64,000 nt of DNA, from positions 3,707,309 through 3,771,308 of the forward strand of contig NZ_CP099490.1 of the NCBI RefSeq assembly GCF_023923205.1. Direction: 5' to 3'. This stretch comes from Ornithinimicrobium cryptoxanthini (lineage in GTDB: Bacteria > Actinomycetota > Actinomycetes > Actinomycetales > Dermatophilaceae). This document shows, piece after piece, positions 31,091 through 38,096 of the stretch. The first letter of the stretch is position 1, and every line of letters begins with the position of its first letter. Made by a program: the position numbers and the translations under genes. The notes below the pieces were generated by a model. The model saw nothing but the letters and a program-made list of their open reading frames with translations. It did no database searches and had not been told where the DNA came from.

Positions 31091-32608
31091 GTGACCACCA
31101 GAGTGACGACACGGTGGGGAGTTGCAGCACTGGCAGGTGCGGCGGTCGTGCTGAGCCTCGCCTCAGGGCCGGCCGGCACCACCCCCTTGCCCGCCGACGA
31201 GATGTCTCCACTGGAGACGGCGCAACCCGTGGCATGGACCGGCGGCCTGGGCGGGCAGGCACCGTGTCCGGAGGGACGCACCCGCAGTGCCACCCTGATG
31301 ACCGAGGGCTTTGGCAGCGGGATCCCCAACAACGCCTTCAACAACGGCTGGGCCACCGTCGCCGGCTCGGTGGACGGCCGGGCCGCCCGCTCCGTGGTGA
31401 ACTCGTCGGACAGCGAGGACTGGTTCTTCACCGACTGGGCCATCGGCTCCCCCGGCACCCAGACCATGCTCGCCTTCACCTCCCGCGGCAACGTGTCCTC
31501 GTCGAGCTACTCCCGGGCCGACGTCAACTCGGTGTCGCTGCACGCGGCCGCCAACACCACCAGCTGGCGCGGCAAGGTCTTTGACGTCACGGCCGCGACC
31601 CACGACGAGGACGGCCGGCTCGGCACCTGGTTCCAGCACCGCTCCCAGGCCGGCGCCAGCCAGTGGTGGGAGGTCGACAACATCCAGATCTACGCCTGTC
31701 GGGCTGCAGCCGTCAGCCGGATCCAGGGCGCTGACCGCTTCGCGACCTCGGCTGCGATCGCGGCGACCTATCCGGTCGGTCCCGACGTCGCCTACCTCGC
31801 CAACGGCCGGGGCTTCGCCGACGCCTTGGCCGGCTCCGCCCTGGCCGCCAAGGCGGACGCACCGATCCTGCTGGTCGAGCGGGACTCCATCCCGGCCTCG
31901 GTCGCCGCGGAGCTCGACCGGCTGGACCCCGCCAGCATCGTGGTCTTCGGTGGTCCCAGCTCGGTCAGTGACACCGTCCTGACCCAGGCGGCCGGCTACA
32001 CCGGCGGCGAGGTGACCCGGCTCGCCGGCGACAACCGCTATGCCACCTCGGCCGCGATCGCCGACACCTATCCCGCCGGCATCAGCACTGTCTATATCGC
32101 CAGCGGCACCGGCTATGCCGATGCTCTCTCCGGCGGCGCCTCGGCCGGTCGCAACGCCCGCCCCATGCTGCTCACGGACCCCACGTCACTGCCGCCGGAG
32201 ACGCGCGCCGCCCTGGCGGCGCTCGAGCCGGGGAGCCTGGTCATCCTCGGCGGCCCCAGCTCGGTGTCGGACACCGTGGCCGCCCAGCTGGCGGCCTACA
32301 CCACCGGTGGGGTGTCGCGCATCGCCGGCGCCGACCGCTACGACACCTCCGCGCGGATCGCCCGCACGTTCCCGCTCGAGCGGGACCGCGTCTTCGTCGC
32401 CACCGGCACCTCCTTCCCGGACGCGCTGTCCGGTTCGGCGCTGGCCGGCAAGGAGGCCACCCCGGTGGTGCTCACCAGGCCGAGCAACCTGCCGTCCCAG
32501 GCACGAAGCGCCATCGACCGGCTCACCCCGGCGTCCGGCGTGGTCCTCGGCGGCGCCGGCTCGGTCCAGTCCATCGTCCTCGACCAACTCGGCCAGCACG
32601 TCGGCTGA
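31091..32608 (+). CDS. Exported protein with three CWB2 cell-wall-binding repeats
   Basis: 505 residues. The N-terminal signal peptide is TTRWGVAALAGAAVVLSLASG. Residues 50-200 look like a beta-sandwich of the choice-of-anchor/adhesin type (LMTEGFGSGIPNNAFNNGW; QWWEVDNIQIYAC). Three CWB2 repeats follow (starting near 209, 303 and 397), each with a (I/L)xGxxRxxTSAxIA signature and an ALxGSALA-like segment. In clostridia CWB2 repeats bind an anionic secondary wall polymer. The GTG at 31091 has GGGGAGAG upstream. It is first in a run of closely spaced genes that continues with the Mau-like cassette; 12 bp separate it from the next gene. Confidence 0.88.
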   Translation: MTTRVTTRWGVAALAGAAVVLSLASGPAGTTPLPADEMSPLETAQPVAWTGGLGGQAPCPEGRTRSATLMTEGFGSGIPNNAFNNGWATVAGSVDGRAARSVVNSSDSEDWFFTDWAIGSPGTQTMLAFTSRGNVSSSSYSRADVNSVSLHAAANTTSWRGKVFDVTAATHDEDGRLGTWFQHRSQAGASQWWEVDNIQIYACRAAAVSRIQGADRFATSAAIAATYPVGPDVAYLANGRGFADALAGSALAAKADAPILLVERDSIPASVAAELDRLDPASIVVFGGPSSVSDTVLTQAAGYTGGEVTRLAGDNRYATSAAIADTYPAGISTVYIASGTGYADALSGGASAGRNARPMLLTDPTSLPPETRAALAALEPGSLVILGGPSSVSDTVAAQLAAYTTGGVSRIAGADRYDTSARIARTFPLERDRVFVATGTSFPDALSGSALAGKEATPVVLTRPSNLPSQARSAIDRLTPASGVVLGGAGSVQSIVLDQLGQHVG

Positions 32609-32620
32609 CCAGGAGATCCC

Positions 32621-33304
32621 ATGCGCACCACACGACGACTGATCAACGGGGAGACCCTCGTGCTCGACGTGCCCGACGCCGAGACCATGCCCCCGGCCAC
32701 GGCCATCAGCGTGCTGGCCCAGGACGGCCTGGAGCTCGAGGTCAACAGCGGTGGTTCCGACCACCTGGAGCACTACCTCGCGGTGAGCGGAAGCACGCTC
32801 ACCGGCGAGATCCAGCTGCGCAACGGCGTCACGCTGCGCCACGGACGCTATGGCGGCGACCCGGCTCAGGGGATGGCCTTCTCGGTCCGGGTCGGTGACC
32901 ACGAGATCTTCGGCTTCACCGTGCCAACCCTCGACCTGGAGGGGCTGAGTGCCCTGCTCTCGCAGGTCGAGTTCACCGCCCACGCCGACGGCGCGGTCCT
33001 CACGCCGGGCGGCTCGGTGACCTGGTCGGACTACCGCACCCACGACGTCGCCCAGGTGGTCCACCTGGCCCAGGGTCGCCGAGCACTGCTCGATGTCCGG
33101 CGCACCCGCACCGGCGTCACGCGCCCCTCCGGCCCCGGCCTGGACGTGCGCGGCGGGCGGCTGAGCCGCTCGGCCGAGGACGAGCGGGCCCACTACGCCG
33201 TGCTCGAGGCCGCGGCCTTCGTCGTCTACGGCATCCCCGGCACCGCGGAGGACGTCGACGCCCTAGCCACCTCACTGAGCCAGGTCACGGCGGAGCTGGC
33301 ATGA
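32621..33304 (+). CDS. Unknown protein of the Mau-like cassette
   Basis: 227 residues, no recognised family. No signal peptide or membrane segment is seen. The sequence looks beta-rich with long hydrophilic strands (GSTLTGEIQLRNGVTLRHGR; SVRVGDHEIFGFTVPTLDLE) and ends in a helix (PGTAEDVDALATSLSQVTAE). AGGAG lies seven bases before the ATG. Its stop overlaps the start of the MauE-like gene (ATGA), so it belongs to the same operon. A chaperone, modifying enzyme or assembly factor for the exported Cys-rich product is possible, but nothing in the sequence shows it. Confidence 0.78.
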   Translation: MRTTRRLINGETLVLDVPDAETMPPATAISVLAQDGLELEVNSGGSDHLEHYLAVSGSTLTGEIQLRNGVTLRHGRYGGDPAQGMAFSVRVGDHEIFGFTVPTLDLEGLSALLSQVEFTAHADGAVLTPGGSVTWSDYRTHDVAQVVHLAQGRRALLDVRRTRTGVTRPSGPGLDVRGGRLSRSAEDERAHYAVLEAAAFVVYGIPGTAEDVDALATSLSQVTAELA

Positions 33305-33888
33305 GCATCCTGTCCCCCGCCCTGCTCGGCGCCGTCGGCCTGGTCCTGCTGGCCGCCGCCGTGGGCCACCTGCGCGACCCTGGCTCCCTGCGCCGCGGGC
33401 TGCGCGCTCACGGCGTGCTGCCCGACGGCACCCACCGCTTCGTCTCGGTCGTGCTGGGCCCGCTCGAGGCGGTCCTGGGTGCCGCGGCACTCGTGGCCGT
33501 CGTCACCGGACCGTCGCGCGCTGCCGCCCTGGCCGTGAGTATGCCGATCGCCGGACTCTTCCTGGCCCTCACCGGTTATCTGGCCCAGGTGCTGCGGGTC
33601 ACCGCTGGTCAGGTCGTGCCGTGCGCCTGCGGCCTGGGCGACACCCCGGTGGGCGGGCCCGCGGTCCTGCGCGGCGGCATACTCACCGCCATGGCGTTCG
33701 TCGGCGGTGCCACTGCCACCGGTTGGAGCGCCTCGGGCGCCCCTGCCGAGGAGGCCGTGGTGGCGCTGGCCGCAGCACTCGTGCTCGGGCTGGCCACCGC
33801 GCTGCTGCCCGCGGCCCGGGCGGTGCCGGACGCAGCGCTGCGGGCGTCGGCCACCGCCGGCAGCGCACACCACGGAGGTCATCGATGA
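33301..33888 (+). CDS. MauE-like membrane protein
   Basis: 195 residues with about four to five transmembrane helices (LLGAVGLVLLAAAVGHLRDP; VLGPLEAVLGAAALVAVV; AVSMPIAGLFLALTGYLAQV). A conserved-looking CxC pair occurs in VVPCACGLGDTPVGGP. This pattern matches MauE/DoxX-like proteins; MauE of methylotrophs is needed for disulfide formation in the methylamine dehydrogenase small subunit. It overlaps the genes on both sides (ATGA at each), indicating tight coupling with the MauD-like protein. It may transfer electrons or oxidising equivalents across the membrane. Confidence 0.8.
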   Translation: MSILSPALLGAVGLVLLAAAVGHLRDPGSLRRGLRAHGVLPDGTHRFVSVVLGPLEAVLGAAALVAVVTGPSRAAALAVSMPIAGLFLALTGYLAQVLRVTAGQVVPCACGLGDTPVGGPAVLRGGILTAMAFVGGATATGWSASGAPAEEAVVALAAALVLGLATALLPAARAVPDAALRASATAGSAHHGGHR

Positions 33889-34442
33889 GCTTCATGGAGT
33901 CCGCCGTCCTCCTGGCGTGGGTCGCGCTCGTGCTGCTGGCACTGGGGCTGGCCGGGCTGCTGCGCCAGGTGACCGTCCTGACCCGTGGTCAGGCTGGCGG
34001 CGCGGCACCGGCCGGTGGGAGCCCGCGAAGCACCCGCGACCTGGTCGGTTTCCGCCTGCCCGCCCACGGCGAGCTCGCGGCACTGGTCGAGCCTGGCGCC
34101 CACCGCACCGTCGTCGCCTTCGTCTCGCCCGGCTGCTCGTCGTGCGCGGTGACTCTCAGCGGCCTGGCCGACGTCGCGGACGTGCGCGCAGGTTCGGTCG
34201 CGCTCATCGCCGTCTCCACCGGGTCCTGCGAGCCCGCCCAGGACAACCTCGCCGGCGCCGGCCGGTGCATCGCGCAGGGCCGGGCGCTGCTGGAGCAGCT
34301 CCACGTGCCGGCCACCCCCTATCTCCTGGCGCTGGACGCCAGCAGCACCATCGTCGCGGCCACGCTGCCCGACCAGGATCTTGACCTGACCGCCTGGGTC
34401 CACCGGGCTCGCGGAGCACTCAACCTCACCGAGGAGCAGTGA
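33885..34442 (+). CDS. MauD-like thioredoxin-fold protein, membrane-anchored
   Basis: 185 residues. One N-terminal transmembrane helix (SAVLLAWVALVLLALGLAGLL) anchors an extracytoplasmic thioredoxin-like domain with the redox motif SPGCSSC and a cis-Pro region VPATPYLLALD. The layout matches MauD/TlpA/ResA-type thiol oxidoreductases. Two additional Cys (STGSCEP, GAGRC) may also take part. GGAGG lies six bases before the ATG at 33885, which overlaps the stop of the MauE-like gene. Adjacent MauE- and MauD-like proteins suggest a dedicated disulfide pathway for the Cys-rich protein encoded next. Confidence 0.82.
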   Translation: MSFMESAVLLAWVALVLLALGLAGLLRQVTVLTRGQAGGAAPAGGSPRSTRDLVGFRLPAHGELAALVEPGAHRTVVAFVSPGCSSCAVTLSGLADVADVRAGSVALIAVSTGSCEPAQDNLAGAGRCIAQGRALLEQLHVPATPYLLALDASSTIVAATLPDQDLDLTAWVHRARGALNLTEEQ

Positions 34443-34996
34443 TGACTGACACCAGCGCCACGACCACCGGCGCCGCCACCGGCGTGACCTTTGCCGACCT
34501 GCCGGTCACTGACGCGGGCCACCTGCGCAAGCGGCTGCGGCCCCGCCCCTCCCGCAGGACCTTCATGGGCTCGGTGCTGGGTGCGGGGGCGGCGGTCGGG
34601 CTGGGCTCACTGTTTCTGGTCAACAGGGCCGCGGACAGTGCCCAGGCGGCCTACTGGCAGGACTGGACGAGCACCAACACGGGGCCGTGCGACCCGGTGA
34701 CCGGCTATGCCCGGGGCCACACGGAGAGCGGCATCATGTGCGGGCCCTCCCCGATGTGCACCTCCCGGTCGTGCTGCTGGAAATATCGCAACGGCGCCGG
34801 CAACCTGGTCGGCTGGCACAAGAACGCGCCCGGCTCGACCGGCTACTACACGCACCGGCCTGACGACTGCTGGAACGGCACCTACGACTCCTGGCACTGG
34901 AAGTTCAGCGACGGCAACACCTATCGCTGCTCGGACGGCTGGACGTGCAGTGCCTCCGGCGCCTGCAGCAAGTCGATCTGCCCGTGGGCGATCTGA
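34442..34996 (+). CDS. Tat-exported Cys/Trp-rich protein, unknown function
   Basis: 184 residues. The N-terminus has a twin-arginine signal (SRRTFMGSV, followed by LGAGAAVGLGSLFLVNRA). The mature part of about 115 residues contains ten Cys and nine Trp, many Gly, Tyr and His, and no long hydrophobic stretch. Cys come in clusters (MCGPSPMC, SRSCCWK, YRCSDGWTC, SGACSKSICPW). The Tat signal, size, Cys content and MauE/MauD neighbours recall the methylamine dehydrogenase small subunit MauA, but I see no MauA sequence match and no large-subunit gene. GAGGAG precedes the ATG, which overlaps the upstream stop by one base. Confidence 0.8.
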   Translation: MTDTSATTTGAATGVTFADLPVTDAGHLRKRLRPRPSRRTFMGSVLGAGAAVGLGSLFLVNRAADSAQAAYWQDWTSTNTGPCDPVTGYARGHTESGIMCGPSPMCTSRSCCWKYRNGAGNLVGWHKNAPGSTGYYTHRPDDCWNGTYDSWHWKFSDGNTYRCSDGWTCSASGACSKSICPWAI

Positions 34997-35181
34997 GCAC
35001 TCCCGCCCAGGTCTCGCCACCGCGCCGCTGGATCGCTGACCCGCTCGCGCTGCTGGGACTGCTCGCACTGGGCTCGGTCGGGCTCGGCGCGCTCCAGCTC
35101 AGCGGCACCCCCGTCACCTGGCCGGTGCCCGCGCTCCTGGCCGTCGTGGCTGCGGGTCTGGCGCTGTCCGGCTCCACCTGA
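34984..35181 (+). CDS. Short membrane protein ending at an in-frame TGA
   Basis: 65 residues with two transmembrane helices (DPLALLGLLALGSVGLGALQ; VPALLAVVAAGLALSG). The GTG start at 34984 overlaps the upstream gene by 13 bp. The reading frame continues without a shift beyond the TGA at 35179-35181 into the next membrane-protein frame (35206-35763). The two may therefore be one gene cut by a nonsense codon, or two genes in the same frame. Confidence 0.6.
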   Translation: MGDLSTPAQVSPPRRWIADPLALLGLLALGSVGLGALQLSGTPVTWPVPALLAVVAAGLALSGST

Positions 35182-35205
35182 GGCCTCAACAGCGCCTGGG
35201 CGCTG

Positions 35206-35763
35206 GTGGCCTCGGTCCGAGGCCGTTCGACGCAGCTGCGACTGTGGCTCGCCTTCCTGGCGGGCTGCACGGTCGGCGGCGCCCTCACCGGCACCGCGCT
35301 AGGAGTGGTGTCGGGGTTGTTCACCCCGGTCCCGCTGCCCTGGCGGGCGGGCCTGCTGGCCGCACTGGTCCTGGCACTGGTCCTGATGGACCTGAGCCAA
35401 CCCGTGCTCCGGCTGCCGCAGCGCCGCGAGCTGATCCCCCAGGAGGTGTTCGCCCGGGGGATGGGCCGCGGCGGTTTCCGGTTCGGCGTGGAATATGGCT
35501 GCGGCTTCCGCACGCTGGTGCCGTCTGCTGCCTCGTATGCCGCGGCGCTGTTCGTCCTGCTCGCCGCATTGCCCCTGGGCTGGGCCGTGCTGCTCGGCGG
35601 CACCTTCGGGGCGTCGCGGTCGCTGGCCGTGCTGCAGTATGTCCTGCTCGGCCAGCCGGGGTGGCAGCGCTTCCTGTCTGGTCACACCCGTTGGCTCGAG
35701 CGCGGGGGAACGCTCGCCACGGCGGTGCTCCTCGCCTGGGCCGTCGGGCTGCTGCTTACCTGA
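35206..35763 (+). CDS. Membrane protein of the Mau-like cassette (possible downstream half of a split gene)
   Basis: 185 residues by the first GTG. About five transmembrane helices are seen (LRLWLAFLAGCTVGGALTGTA; WRAGLLAALVLALVLMDL; SYAAALFVLLAALPLGWAVLL; GTLATAVLLAWAVGLLLT). Between helices lies PQRRELIPQEVFARGMGRGG and a GVEYGCGFRTLVPSAASY segment with one Cys. No ribosome-binding site precedes the GTG at 35206, and the frame runs back to the TGA at 35179 without a break, which supports a single original gene. No family was recognised. It is the last gene of the cassette; a terminator follows. Confidence 0.65.
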   Translation: MASVRGRSTQLRLWLAFLAGCTVGGALTGTALGVVSGLFTPVPLPWRAGLLAALVLALVLMDLSQPVLRLPQRRELIPQEVFARGMGRGGFRFGVEYGCGFRTLVPSAASYAAALFVLLAALPLGWAVLLGGTFGASRSLAVLQYVLLGQPGWQRFLSGHTRWLERGGTLATAVLLAWAVGLLLT

Positions 35764-35864: not shown

Positions 35865-38081
35865 TCAGCCCACGTAGTCCTGCAGCAGCGTCTCCACCTC
35901 GGTGGAGACCACCTCCGTGCCGCCGATGACCAGGATCCGCTTGGGGTTCAGCTGGGCGAGCGCGTCCTTGGTGGGCTGGAAGATCGTGTTGGTGGCGACC
36001 AGCAGGACCGGGCCGTGCGAGTCGCCCGCACGGGCCGCTCCGGACAGTGCGTCCGGATAGGCCTGTCCCGTGGCCACGACCACCGTGTCCAACCCGTTCG
36101 GGTAGTACTTCGCCAGCTCGGCTGCGGTGGCATAGCGGTTGTGCCCCGCGACCCGTTGCAGGTTGCCCGAGCGGGTCAGGTCCTTCAGCTGGTTCGCGAC
36201 CGCATCGCTGACCACGCTTGGGCCACCGAGCACCACCACCCGATAAGGGTTGATCGCCTGGATGGCGCTCAGCGTCGCGTCGGGGATGCTGTCGGGCTTG
36301 ACCAGCAGGACGGGACCGTCGTTGTAGCCCGCCCGAGCCGCGCCCGCGAGCGCGTCCGGATAGTCCAGCCCCGTGGCGACATACAGCACATCGACCCGGT
36401 TGCCGAAGGTCTTGGCCAGCGCGCCCGCGGTGGCATAGCGGTCCGCCCCACCGACCCGCACGACAGGGGCGGTCGTGAGCGAGTCGACCTGGCTCAGCAC
36501 AGAGCCGCTGATGGAGCCGGTGCCGCCGACGATGGTGACCCGTGACGGCTTCAGCGCCTTGATCGCATCGCGGGTCACGTCGGGCAGCACGGTCTCCTGG
36601 GTCAGCAGGACCGGGCCACCCAGGGAGCCCGCGCGGGCGGCGGCCGTCAGCGCGTCCGGGTAGTCCCCGCCGACCGTGATGAACAGCTGCTTGCCGGTTG
36701 GGAAGGTGCTGGCCAGCTCGGCCGCGGTCGAGTAGCGGTTGCTCCCGGAGATCCGGACGACGCCGGGTGCGGGCTCCGGCTCGGGCTCGGGAGCGGGAGG
36801 CGGCGGGGTGGGCTCCGGCGGCACACCGGCTGCGATCATGAACGCCCACGTGGCGTTGTCGAGGACACCGGTCCACGGCAGCGACTTCGCGGCCTGGTAG
36901 TTCAGCAGCGCCTGCAGGGTCATCGGACCGAACGAACCGTCCAGATCGGTGCCGGTGAAGCCGAGATAGGTCTGCGCCTGACGGACGTAGTTGTTGTTTG
37001 CCCCCGGCAGGACGACCGGGTTCGGCGAGTAGGGAGCCGACGGGAGGCCGGTGGCGCAGACCGAGCCGTTGAAGCCCTGGTAACGCGGTGCGTACTGCGC
37101 GGCGTAGACGCGGCAGGTGCCGTAGTCGTGCGCGGTGACGGGCGTGCCGTCCCACCACGAGGTGCGGCCCATCGCGCCGTCCCAGCTGAAGCTGATGTGC
37201 AGGTGGTCGGTGTGCGGCGACGCCCCGTAGTAGGGGTGCCAGCTGCCCGGCTTGTAGAGGTACCAGGACTGGCGGTTCCAGATGATCGACTGGACGCCGA
37301 AGCGGCGTGCCACCTCACCGTTGTTGGCGGTGATCCACTGCGCCACGGCGTCGCCGATGGCCTTCTCCGACGGGTTGTAGGCATTCATCGGCCAGTCGAC
37401 GGCGCGACCCTCGTAGTGCTGGCTGTTGTCACCCTGCCGGCAGGCGCGGGAGCCATACCAGGTCGGCTTGCCGTAGTGGCTCGACACGAGGTTGGCGAAG
37501 GCGACCATGCCCGGCTTGTTGTTCGGGTCGCAGGAGTAGGAGTACTGCCACGGCGGTGCCGCATCGAGCGTGTTGGGCAGGTCCTTGGTCGGCGGGGCCG
37601 GGACGGACATGAGGTCGGCCTCGGTCAGGCGCGGACCGGCACCCAGGTCGGCGAAGCCTCCCCCGATGTAGCCGTCATCCGCCGACATCAGCTCCGCTCC
37701 GGTCGAGGGCACGATGTCGGTCGCCGGCTGCTCGACCAGCCACTCCTGGGGCACCTGCCCGGGGTCCGGTGGGGCACCCCGCCAGTCCATCGGGCTCTGG
37801 GGTATGCCGCGGACCAGGTTGTCGGACTCGCTCTCACCCGGCACCACGAACGGGTCGGTCGGCAGAGTCAGCCCCTCGGCGAAGGGGTCGCCCAGGGCCT
37901 GCAGACCCGCGATATCGGCGTGGCTGTGCTCGTGTTCGTCCGCGTGGACCGGTGCCGGCCCCGCGTCGGTCACCGAGGTCCCCTCAGGGACCGGGTCGGC
38001 GGAGGCGATGGGAACGGCGGCCACCAGGGCCACGGCGCTGACGCCGACGACAAGTCCCTGACGCAGGGGTTGGAGACGCAT
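35865..38081 (-). CDS. Secreted peptidase-like wall protein with peptidoglycan-binding and CWB2 domains
   Basis: 738 residues. Signal peptide at the N-terminus (GLVVGVSAVALVAAVPIASA). After a 150-residue variable region, residues 185-345 carry an M15/VanY-like or ARB_07466-like domain with HYEGRAVDWPMNAYNPSE and SPHTDHLHISFSW, the latter supplying metal-type His residues. A peptidoglycan-binding_1 domain follows (VRQAQTYLGFTGTDLDGSFG), then a Pro/Glu linker and three CWB2 repeats (near 450, 545 and 640). The ATG at 38081 is preferred; a GTG lies five codons upstream. The mature N-terminus has a His/Glu cluster (HADEHEHSHAD), possibly metal-binding. Likely role: wall remodelling while bound to a wall polymer. 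Confidence 0.85.
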   Translation of the reverse strand: MRLQPLRQGLVVGVSAVALVAAVPIASADPVPEGTSVTDAGPAPVHADEHEHSHADIAGLQALGDPFAEGLTLPTDPFVVPGESESDNLVRGIPQSPMDWRGAPPDPGQVPQEWLVEQPATDIVPSTGAELMSADDGYIGGGFADLGAGPRLTEADLMSVPAPPTKDLPNTLDAAPPWQYSYSCDPNNKPGMVAFANLVSSHYGKPTWYGSRACRQGDNSQHYEGRAVDWPMNAYNPSEKAIGDAVAQWITANNGEVARRFGVQSIIWNRQSWYLYKPGSWHPYYGASPHTDHLHISFSWDGAMGRTSWWDGTPVTAHDYGTCRVYAAQYAPRYQGFNGSVCATGLPSAPYSPNPVVLPGANNNYVRQAQTYLGFTGTDLDGSFGPMTLQALLNYQAAKSLPWTGVLDNATWAFMIAAGVPPEPTPPPPAPEPEPEPAPGVVRISGSNRYSTAAELASTFPTGKQLFITVGGDYPDALTAAARAGSLGGPVLLTQETVLPDVTRDAIKALKPSRVTIVGGTGSISGSVLSQVDSLTTAPVVRVGGADRYATAGALAKTFGNRVDVLYVATGLDYPDALAGAARAGYNDGPVLLVKPDSIPDATLSAIQAINPYRVVVLGGPSVVSDAVANQLKDLTRSGNLQRVAGHNRYATAAELAKYYPNGLDTVVVATGQAYPDALSGAARAGDSHGPVLLVATNTIFQPTKDALAQLNPKRILVIGGTEVVSTEVETLLQDYVG

Positions 38082-38096
38082 GCTTCTCTCTTTCAC

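Follow-up and report, generated by a model that had tools for sequence, protein, structure and literature searches.

The 64-kb stretch of DNA analyzed here (the window; G000:C1:3707309-3771308) is the final part of the single contig of the 3.77-Mb genome of Ornithinimicrobium cryptoxanthini. It carries a five-gene cassette, X-E-D-A'-F, in which the last gene, F (34984-35763, plus strand), is divided by an in-frame TGA and would encode a selenocysteine (Sec)-containing membrane protein related to MauF of the mau operon. We propose that F is a UGA-encoded MauF-type selenoprotein and that, together with the MauE-type protein E and the MauD-type protein D, it would form a relay that sets the disulfides of A', a protein that would be exported through the twin-arginine (Tat) pathway and retained at the cell wall. 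From sequence comparison, we put the probability of this reading at roughly 0.7.

An in-frame TGA divides the F gene

Two hydrophobic frames, at 34984-35181 and 35206-35763, share one reading frame, and their sole separator is the TGA at 35179-35181. The initial annotation had counted seven closely spaced or overlapping plus-strand frames at this locus. These frames exist, but the last two are halves of one gene, so that the locus comprises six genes: a gene for a CWB2 cell-wall-binding protein and the five-gene cassette. F likely starts at the GTG at 34984. In its read-through form of 259 residues, Sec is residue 66, and the hydropathy profile shows six hydrophobic stretches.

F was compared across 27 copies, namely that of the window, 10 from contigs of relatives (two of these from one metagenome-assembled genome), and 16 from 13 genomes of the class. 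The relatives with A' were mostly Ornithinimicrobium and Serinicoccus. An in-frame TGA was present at the same site in all 27 copies, which come from 23 genomes, and never as TAA or TAG. With this number of copies and genomes, a sequencing error was rejected as the source of the TGA. Two strong F matches (in G377 and G315) also list a TAG.

The motif spanning the TGA in the F family is SGS[T/V]-U-[G/T/S]-x-N-S, with Asn at U+3 and Ser at U+4 each conserved in 27/27 copies. These two residues cannot stem from a translational restart, because the first ATG, GTG or TTG past the TGA lies at codon 6 or later in every copy. The Ser at U+4 is encoded by AGC in 19 copies and by TCN in 8; the use of both Ser codon groups indicates a constraint on the protein and not on the DNA alone. 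Across nine close copies, the nonsynonymous-to-synonymous ratio (pN/pS) was 0.57 before the TGA and 0.46 after it, values that fit coding sequence but not strongly. Thus, the conserved in-frame UGA flanked by coding constraint on both sides, which characterizes selenoprotein genes, was found in 27/27 copies.

The TGA could instead be a true stop, with the locus encoding two small membrane proteins, the second of them made by re-initiation or translational coupling. Gene callers would end the frame at the TGA, and GTG codons are present downstream. However, the Asn and Ser conserved ahead of any start codon, the encoding of the Ser by both of its codon groups, and the exclusive use of TGA all speak against two separate proteins, as do the covarying hairpin, the link to SelA and the alignment of both halves to one MauF protein, which are described below. 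We consider this explanation highly improbable.

A covarying hairpin lies just downstream of the TGA

A candidate Sec insertion sequence (SECIS) was located at 35208-35224 (plus strand), where a 7-bp hairpin carries GGUC at its tip. The hairpin was evaluated in an alignment of 24 sequences, i.e., the 27 copies minus the near-duplicates L010, L013 and L057. Of 168 cells, 98.8% were paired, and five of the seven base pairs had changed on both sides. The covariation score was 0.689, compared to 0.259 ± 0.035 for shuffled alignments, none of which reached the observed value (0/500); versions of the hairpin slid along the alignment reached 0.256. The GU-bearing loop fits bacterial SECIS elements, and a hairpin 3' of the UGA, as expected of a selenoprotein gene, is thereby provided by this candidate. 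The hairpin model R1 recovered the hairpin of the window, and its other matches (down to E 0.0015) fell elsewhere, several of them inside the window. Another hairpin, located 5' of this candidate, was not counted, as its register shifts between sequences.

The Sec machinery accompanies F

The machinery for Sec was found in the host genome. The tRNA-Sec scored 71.9 bits (cut-off 47), with the anticodon TCA according to ARAGORN, SelA scored 390.8 bits, and a SelB (PF09107, 4.1e-15) adjoins the tRNA-Sec. The sel genes and F are far apart in this genome. Another gene of this genome is also interrupted by an in-frame TGA (L038:13680-17111, minus strand); formate-dehydrogenase-like as judged by its motif only, it lies near selB and the tRNA-Sec and probably encodes a second selenoprotein.

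The read-through profile of F (A3) matched 19 of the 394 class genomes. Strong matches (E < 1e-50) were obtained in 14 genomes, with 17 copies and a TGA in every copy. The five genomes with weaker matches comprised three with a gene of a sister family (see below) containing a TGA, one with a sister gene containing Cys, and one in which the gene was cut by the contig end (L065, G022). SelA was chosen as the marker of the machinery over SelB, for which EF-Tu-like matches occurred in 394/394 genomes, 75 of them above the SelB cut-off. All 14 genomes with strong F matches had SelA above the cut-off and a tRNA-Sec of at least 69 bits; in a background set of 138 class genomes, SelA exceeded the cut-off in 42. 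The chance of finding SelA in 14/14 would be ~6e-8 if the genomes were independent; they are related, though drawn from five families.

Six of the 14 genomes carry sel genes no more than 8 kb from F. Near F, five of these (G183, G285, G307, G369 and G043) have selA, tRNA-Sec and a SelB match, the latter below the cut-off in G285, G307 and G369, and the sixth (G275) has tRNA-Sec only, at a contig end. One locus of G183 (L042) resembles a selenium island, with two Sec cassettes on opposite strands near selA, selB and tRNA-Sec. In a search of the phylum, 17 of 139 genomes gave matches, of which only that of the window was strong and the others were at the level of the sister family. Locus L018 was taken, by eye, as a false match.

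F is homologous to MauF and has a sister family with Sec/Cys exchange

F was compared with true mau operons from the plasmid loci L069, L070 and L072 (mauF-B-E-D-A). The profile alignment of F with MauF covered 179 columns at 97.0% (E 8.5e-11; 96.8% with 22 rows), whereas the controls (MauE, the E family and a major facilitator superfamily protein) reached 0.3% or less. F is thus homologous to MauF over most of the protein, and its Sec aligns with the invariant Cys of the MauF motif STWSPCG. D lies alongside F in 27/27 loci and E in 25/27, as MauD and MauE lie alongside MauF. F is filed as MauF-like and not as MauF, because it has SGS[T/V]-U-x-x-N-S in place of STWSPCG. The statement of the initial annotation that no other mau gene is present besides those for MauE and MauD was incorrect; the MauF homologue had been missed since the stop splits its gene. 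Read-through F had no meaningful match in Pfam or NCBIfam 20.0, and a profile search of the PDB returned nothing up to E 1. In the alignment of the F family, Sec is retained and no other Cys is invariant.

MauF is matched more closely by the sister family (99.2%) than by F. Seven of its loci have TWSP-TGA-G and two have TWSP-Cys-G (G109 and G517). SelA was present in 6/6 tested genomes with the TGA form and in 0/2 with the Cys form; the seventh TGA genome (G009) also has SelA. Such an exchange, with one position holding Sec or Cys according to whether the machinery is present, is a hallmark of selenoproteins. Cys homologues at the Sec position are thus provided by true MauF and by the sister proteins of L061 and L090. 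Decoding of the UGA as a residue other than Sec is improbable, given that Sec is favored both by the Cys homologues and by the link to SelA. The nine loci from the phylum search (L087-L095) showed the sister motif in five cases, with L087 and L092-L094 off the pattern. Among the sister Sec proteins, one scores above the cut-off of DsbD_2 (26.2 bits against 24.9).

Sister genes were observed in two further settings. In L082 (5532-6926, minus strand) and L083, the cassette consists of MauE, MauD, Sec-MauF, one further small protein and a Cys-rich protein of the Tat type that bears LGFP repeats, and it sits between map-like and infA-like genes in a ribosomal-protein region (names assigned by eye). 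In L089 (G048:C1:1781058) and L063 (G009:C221), sister Sec-MauF genes lie within ~2 kb of selA.

The genes of the cassette are conserved together

All genes of the cassette in the window lie on the plus strand. The gene of the CWB2 protein (31091-32608; PF04122, 3.6e-58, three CWB2 stretches) is followed by X (32621-33304), which encodes a 227-residue protein from a family without assigned function; X has no predicted membrane helix, and scans against Pfam and NCBIfam gave no match. Next come E (33301-33888; PF07291, 8.3e-15), a MauE-type membrane protein with a CxC motif, and D (33885-34442), a MauD-type membrane-anchored, thioredoxin-like protein with a CxxC motif, which scored only 21 bits against TIGR02661 (cut-off 188.6). 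A' (34439-34996) encodes a Cys-rich protein that has a twin-arginine leader, is putatively exported by the Tat route and has its mature part from ~34649. X and E overlap by 4 bases, as do E and D; for D and A' the overlap is 4 bases or 1, according to which start is used. In profile comparisons, the E family matched true MauE at 98.0% and the D family matched true MauD at 98.8%, which bears out the initial annotation of a Mau-like redox cassette for a Tat-type Cys/Trp-rich protein.

When the frames lying up to 6 kb from the TGA were searched with iterated profiles, X, D, A' and F were recovered in 27/27 loci and E in 25/27, a grouping that exceeds chance. The profiles were iterated on the very loci that were scored, so their E-values are not independent; X was weak (1e-8 to 1e-10) in four loci. 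Gene order varies between cassettes, with E after F in some, and the two oppositely oriented cassette copies of L042 have one E in common. The CxC of E was conserved in 25/25 rows, and the CxxC of D together with a Pro in 27/27. In A' (numbered from the ATG at 34442), the twin Arg, C100, C111, W151, W153, C163 and D165 were invariant in all 27 rows, which represent 26 distinct proteins, as both L042 rows are identical; the other A' of L042 also has WxW and C-x-D. The mature part of A' in the window has 115 residues, with ten Cys and nine Trp, as first annotated. Its richness in these residues is partly local, and that in Trp mostly so, because only three of the Cys and, of the Trp, only the WxW pair are invariant.

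Elsewhere in the host genome, one frame (L002; G000:C1:3614359) fuses a MauE-type part to a thioredoxin-like part, and PF07291 gave five matches, three of them above the cut-off.

A' occupies the position of MauA and is probably held at the cell wall

In the putative Tat leader of A', the twin Arg was invariant in 27/27 rows, but the TAT_signal models gave 14.4 and 14.8 bits, below their cut-offs. Each full-length copy of the Cys-rich protein recovered by the searches lay within a cassette, as the idea of a dedicated system predicts; two weak partial matches occurred in G119 and G127. The CWB2 gene stands directly upstream of the cassette in the window and in 10/10 close relatives (L006-L015), and no CWB2 match at E 1e-5 was obtained in the other 16 loci, which makes it a neighbor specific to this lineage. 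PG_binding_1 repeats are present on one A' relative (the G285 copy), and LGFP repeats on the sister substrate of L082, with that of L085 just below the cut-off. Wall domains fused to or beside A' relatives therefore link the cassette repeatedly to the cell wall. Another CWB2 protein, encoded convergently at 35865-38096 (minus strand) by a frame of 743 residues, ends ~100 bases past the cassette. It is matched by the CWB2 query of the window, and similar frames occupy the same place in L006, L007 and L008.

A' might be a diverged light chain of the MauA type, so that the cassette would build a tryptophan-quinone enzyme. The E-D-A order is shared with mau and aau-type operons, E, D and F are all homologous to mau proteins, and A' has two invariant Trp and an invariant Asp. 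In addition, the Tat leaders of A' and MauA align (86%, E 5.2e-6, 61 columns), an alignment of little weight because leaders resemble one another in general. In contrast, the mature part of A' did not align with MauA profiles in hhalign (0.1%), a sequence search of the PDB revealed no relation to MauA in the mature domain, and A' had no match to PF02975, which the same library detected in L073. The two invariant Trp are only one residue apart, and no MauB or MauG was annotated or recognized in the cluster, neither of which was searched for genome-wide. A MauA-type light chain is thus very unlikely, and the earlier description of a cassette lacking methylamine dehydrogenase (MADH), whose exported product shows no MauA match, holds. 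A genome search with PF02975 matched 0/246 genomes, with the control likewise without a match. Judging by position, we treat A', which occupies the place of mauA, as working in MauA's stead and not as a member of its family. The sister substrates of L082, L083 and L085, which appeared MauA-like by eye (CPPG...W), were rejected as such, as neither Pfam (L082, L085) nor hhalign gave support. A true MADH light-chain domain (PF02975, 9.2e-9) was observed on a Thermomicrobium plasmid (L073:10501-10953), with three tblastn places; no large subunit is annotated there within the 12-kb stretch.

Compared to the mau operon of Paracoccus denitrificans and Methylobacterium (mauF-B-E-D-A...), the cassette has F, E and D homologous by profile, the E-D-A order, and an exported Cys-rich product with a Tat-like leader. 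It differs in that F has Sec for Cys and stands at the opposite end, mauB, mauC and mauG are not recognized, the protein X is added, and the mature part of A' is unrelated to MauA. The operons of the aromatic-amine-dehydrogenase type (L071 and L074) encode a large subunit, MauE, MauD and a light chain in the order B-E-D-A. They resemble the cassette in E-D and differ from it in having a true light chain; MauF is not annotated in the stretch fetched.

A proposed selenol/thiol relay

In the proposed mechanism, Sec would be inserted at the UGA of F by SelB and tRNA-Sec with the aid of the hairpin just downstream, and would replace the active Cys of this MauF-type (DsbD/CcdA-like) membrane protein. 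F (Sec), E (CxC) and D (CxxC) could together constitute a membrane selenol/thiol relay by which the disulfides of A' are formed or rearranged; A' itself would be exported through the Tat pathway and retained at the cell wall. We base this role on the mau system, the invariant Sec and Cys residues, and the wall-binding domains on or near A' relatives. The mau accessory proteins are thought to set the disulfides of MauA. Sec would speed exchange and resist over-oxidation.

Several observations weigh against this proposal. At the TGA codons of the formate-dehydrogenase-like gene and of the seven sister genes searched, R1 produced nothing with an E-value of 1 or below, and the SECIS assignment consequently rests on the main F family. 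SelB of the host genome scored 229.7 bits against TIGR00475, below the cut-off of 242.25; SelB was above the cut-off in only 8/14 genomes with strong F, and in G309 no SelB was distinguishable from EF-Tu-like matches. MauE is missing within 6 kb in two of the 27 loci (L078 and L079), and the mature part of A' shows no resemblance to the MauA profiles. DsbD_2 matched neither of two true MauF proteins, nor the Cys-containing sister protein, nor one F. F resembles DsbD/CcdA carriers in its SPC-type motif, the TGA standing at the position of the invariant SPC Cys of MauF, and one sister Sec protein passes DsbD_2, as noted above; unlike these carriers, F and true MauF are unmatched by this model and F has no conserved second Cys. 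The two-thiol mechanism of DsbD is not directly transferable to F, because a second invariant Cys is missing.

The relay might also run in the reducing direction, with F transferring electrons from the cytosol to the outside so that A' or a different wall protein stays reduced, e.g., for defense against peroxide or metals. DsbD/CcdA carriers work in this way, one sister protein matches DsbD_2, and Sec is suited to reductive catalysis. However, MauE and MauD are believed to act in forming the disulfides of MauA, and F has a single invariant redox residue. We regard this direction as unlikely, and thiol-disulfide maturation of A' by the F/E/D relay as the preferred reading. A broader proposal is likewise doubtful, namely that the cassette acts as a mobile module devoted to selenium, in which the Sec-MauF/MauE/MauD relay would install a new protein-derived center (e.g., WxW with neighboring Cys/Asp) in a wall-held Tat protein, and which would be a main reason many actinobacteria keep the Sec machinery.

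Relation to known selenoproteins and significance

The 2026 review of selenoproteins (PMC13188914) tabulates 119 families, and the parts of it that were covered hold no MauF, MauE or methylamine entry. The nearest entry to F in those parts is TsoB, a rhodanese/DsbD fusion-like selenoprotein. TsoB resembles F as a selenoprotein with a DsbD-like part and, as far as described in those parts, differs in having two Sec, a rhodanese part and its own model (NF045694), while F has no NCBIfam match. In the portions covered, PMC12013277, PMC9312934 and PMC5029168 contain no mention of Mau, methylamine or DsbD. A literature search that left preprints and most subscription journals outside its scope found selenoproteins and MauF never paired, so an earlier description is possible. 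F is likely a selenoprotein family absent from the inventories checked and halved by gene callers.

These results would place Sec in a membrane carrier of the MauF type, about whose part in forming disulfides little is understood. The Sec machinery of actinobacteria probably serves this cassette, which selA, selB and tRNA-Sec often adjoin. Because Sec and Cys replace each other naturally in the sister family, the reason for the use of selenium in these carriers can be tested directly.

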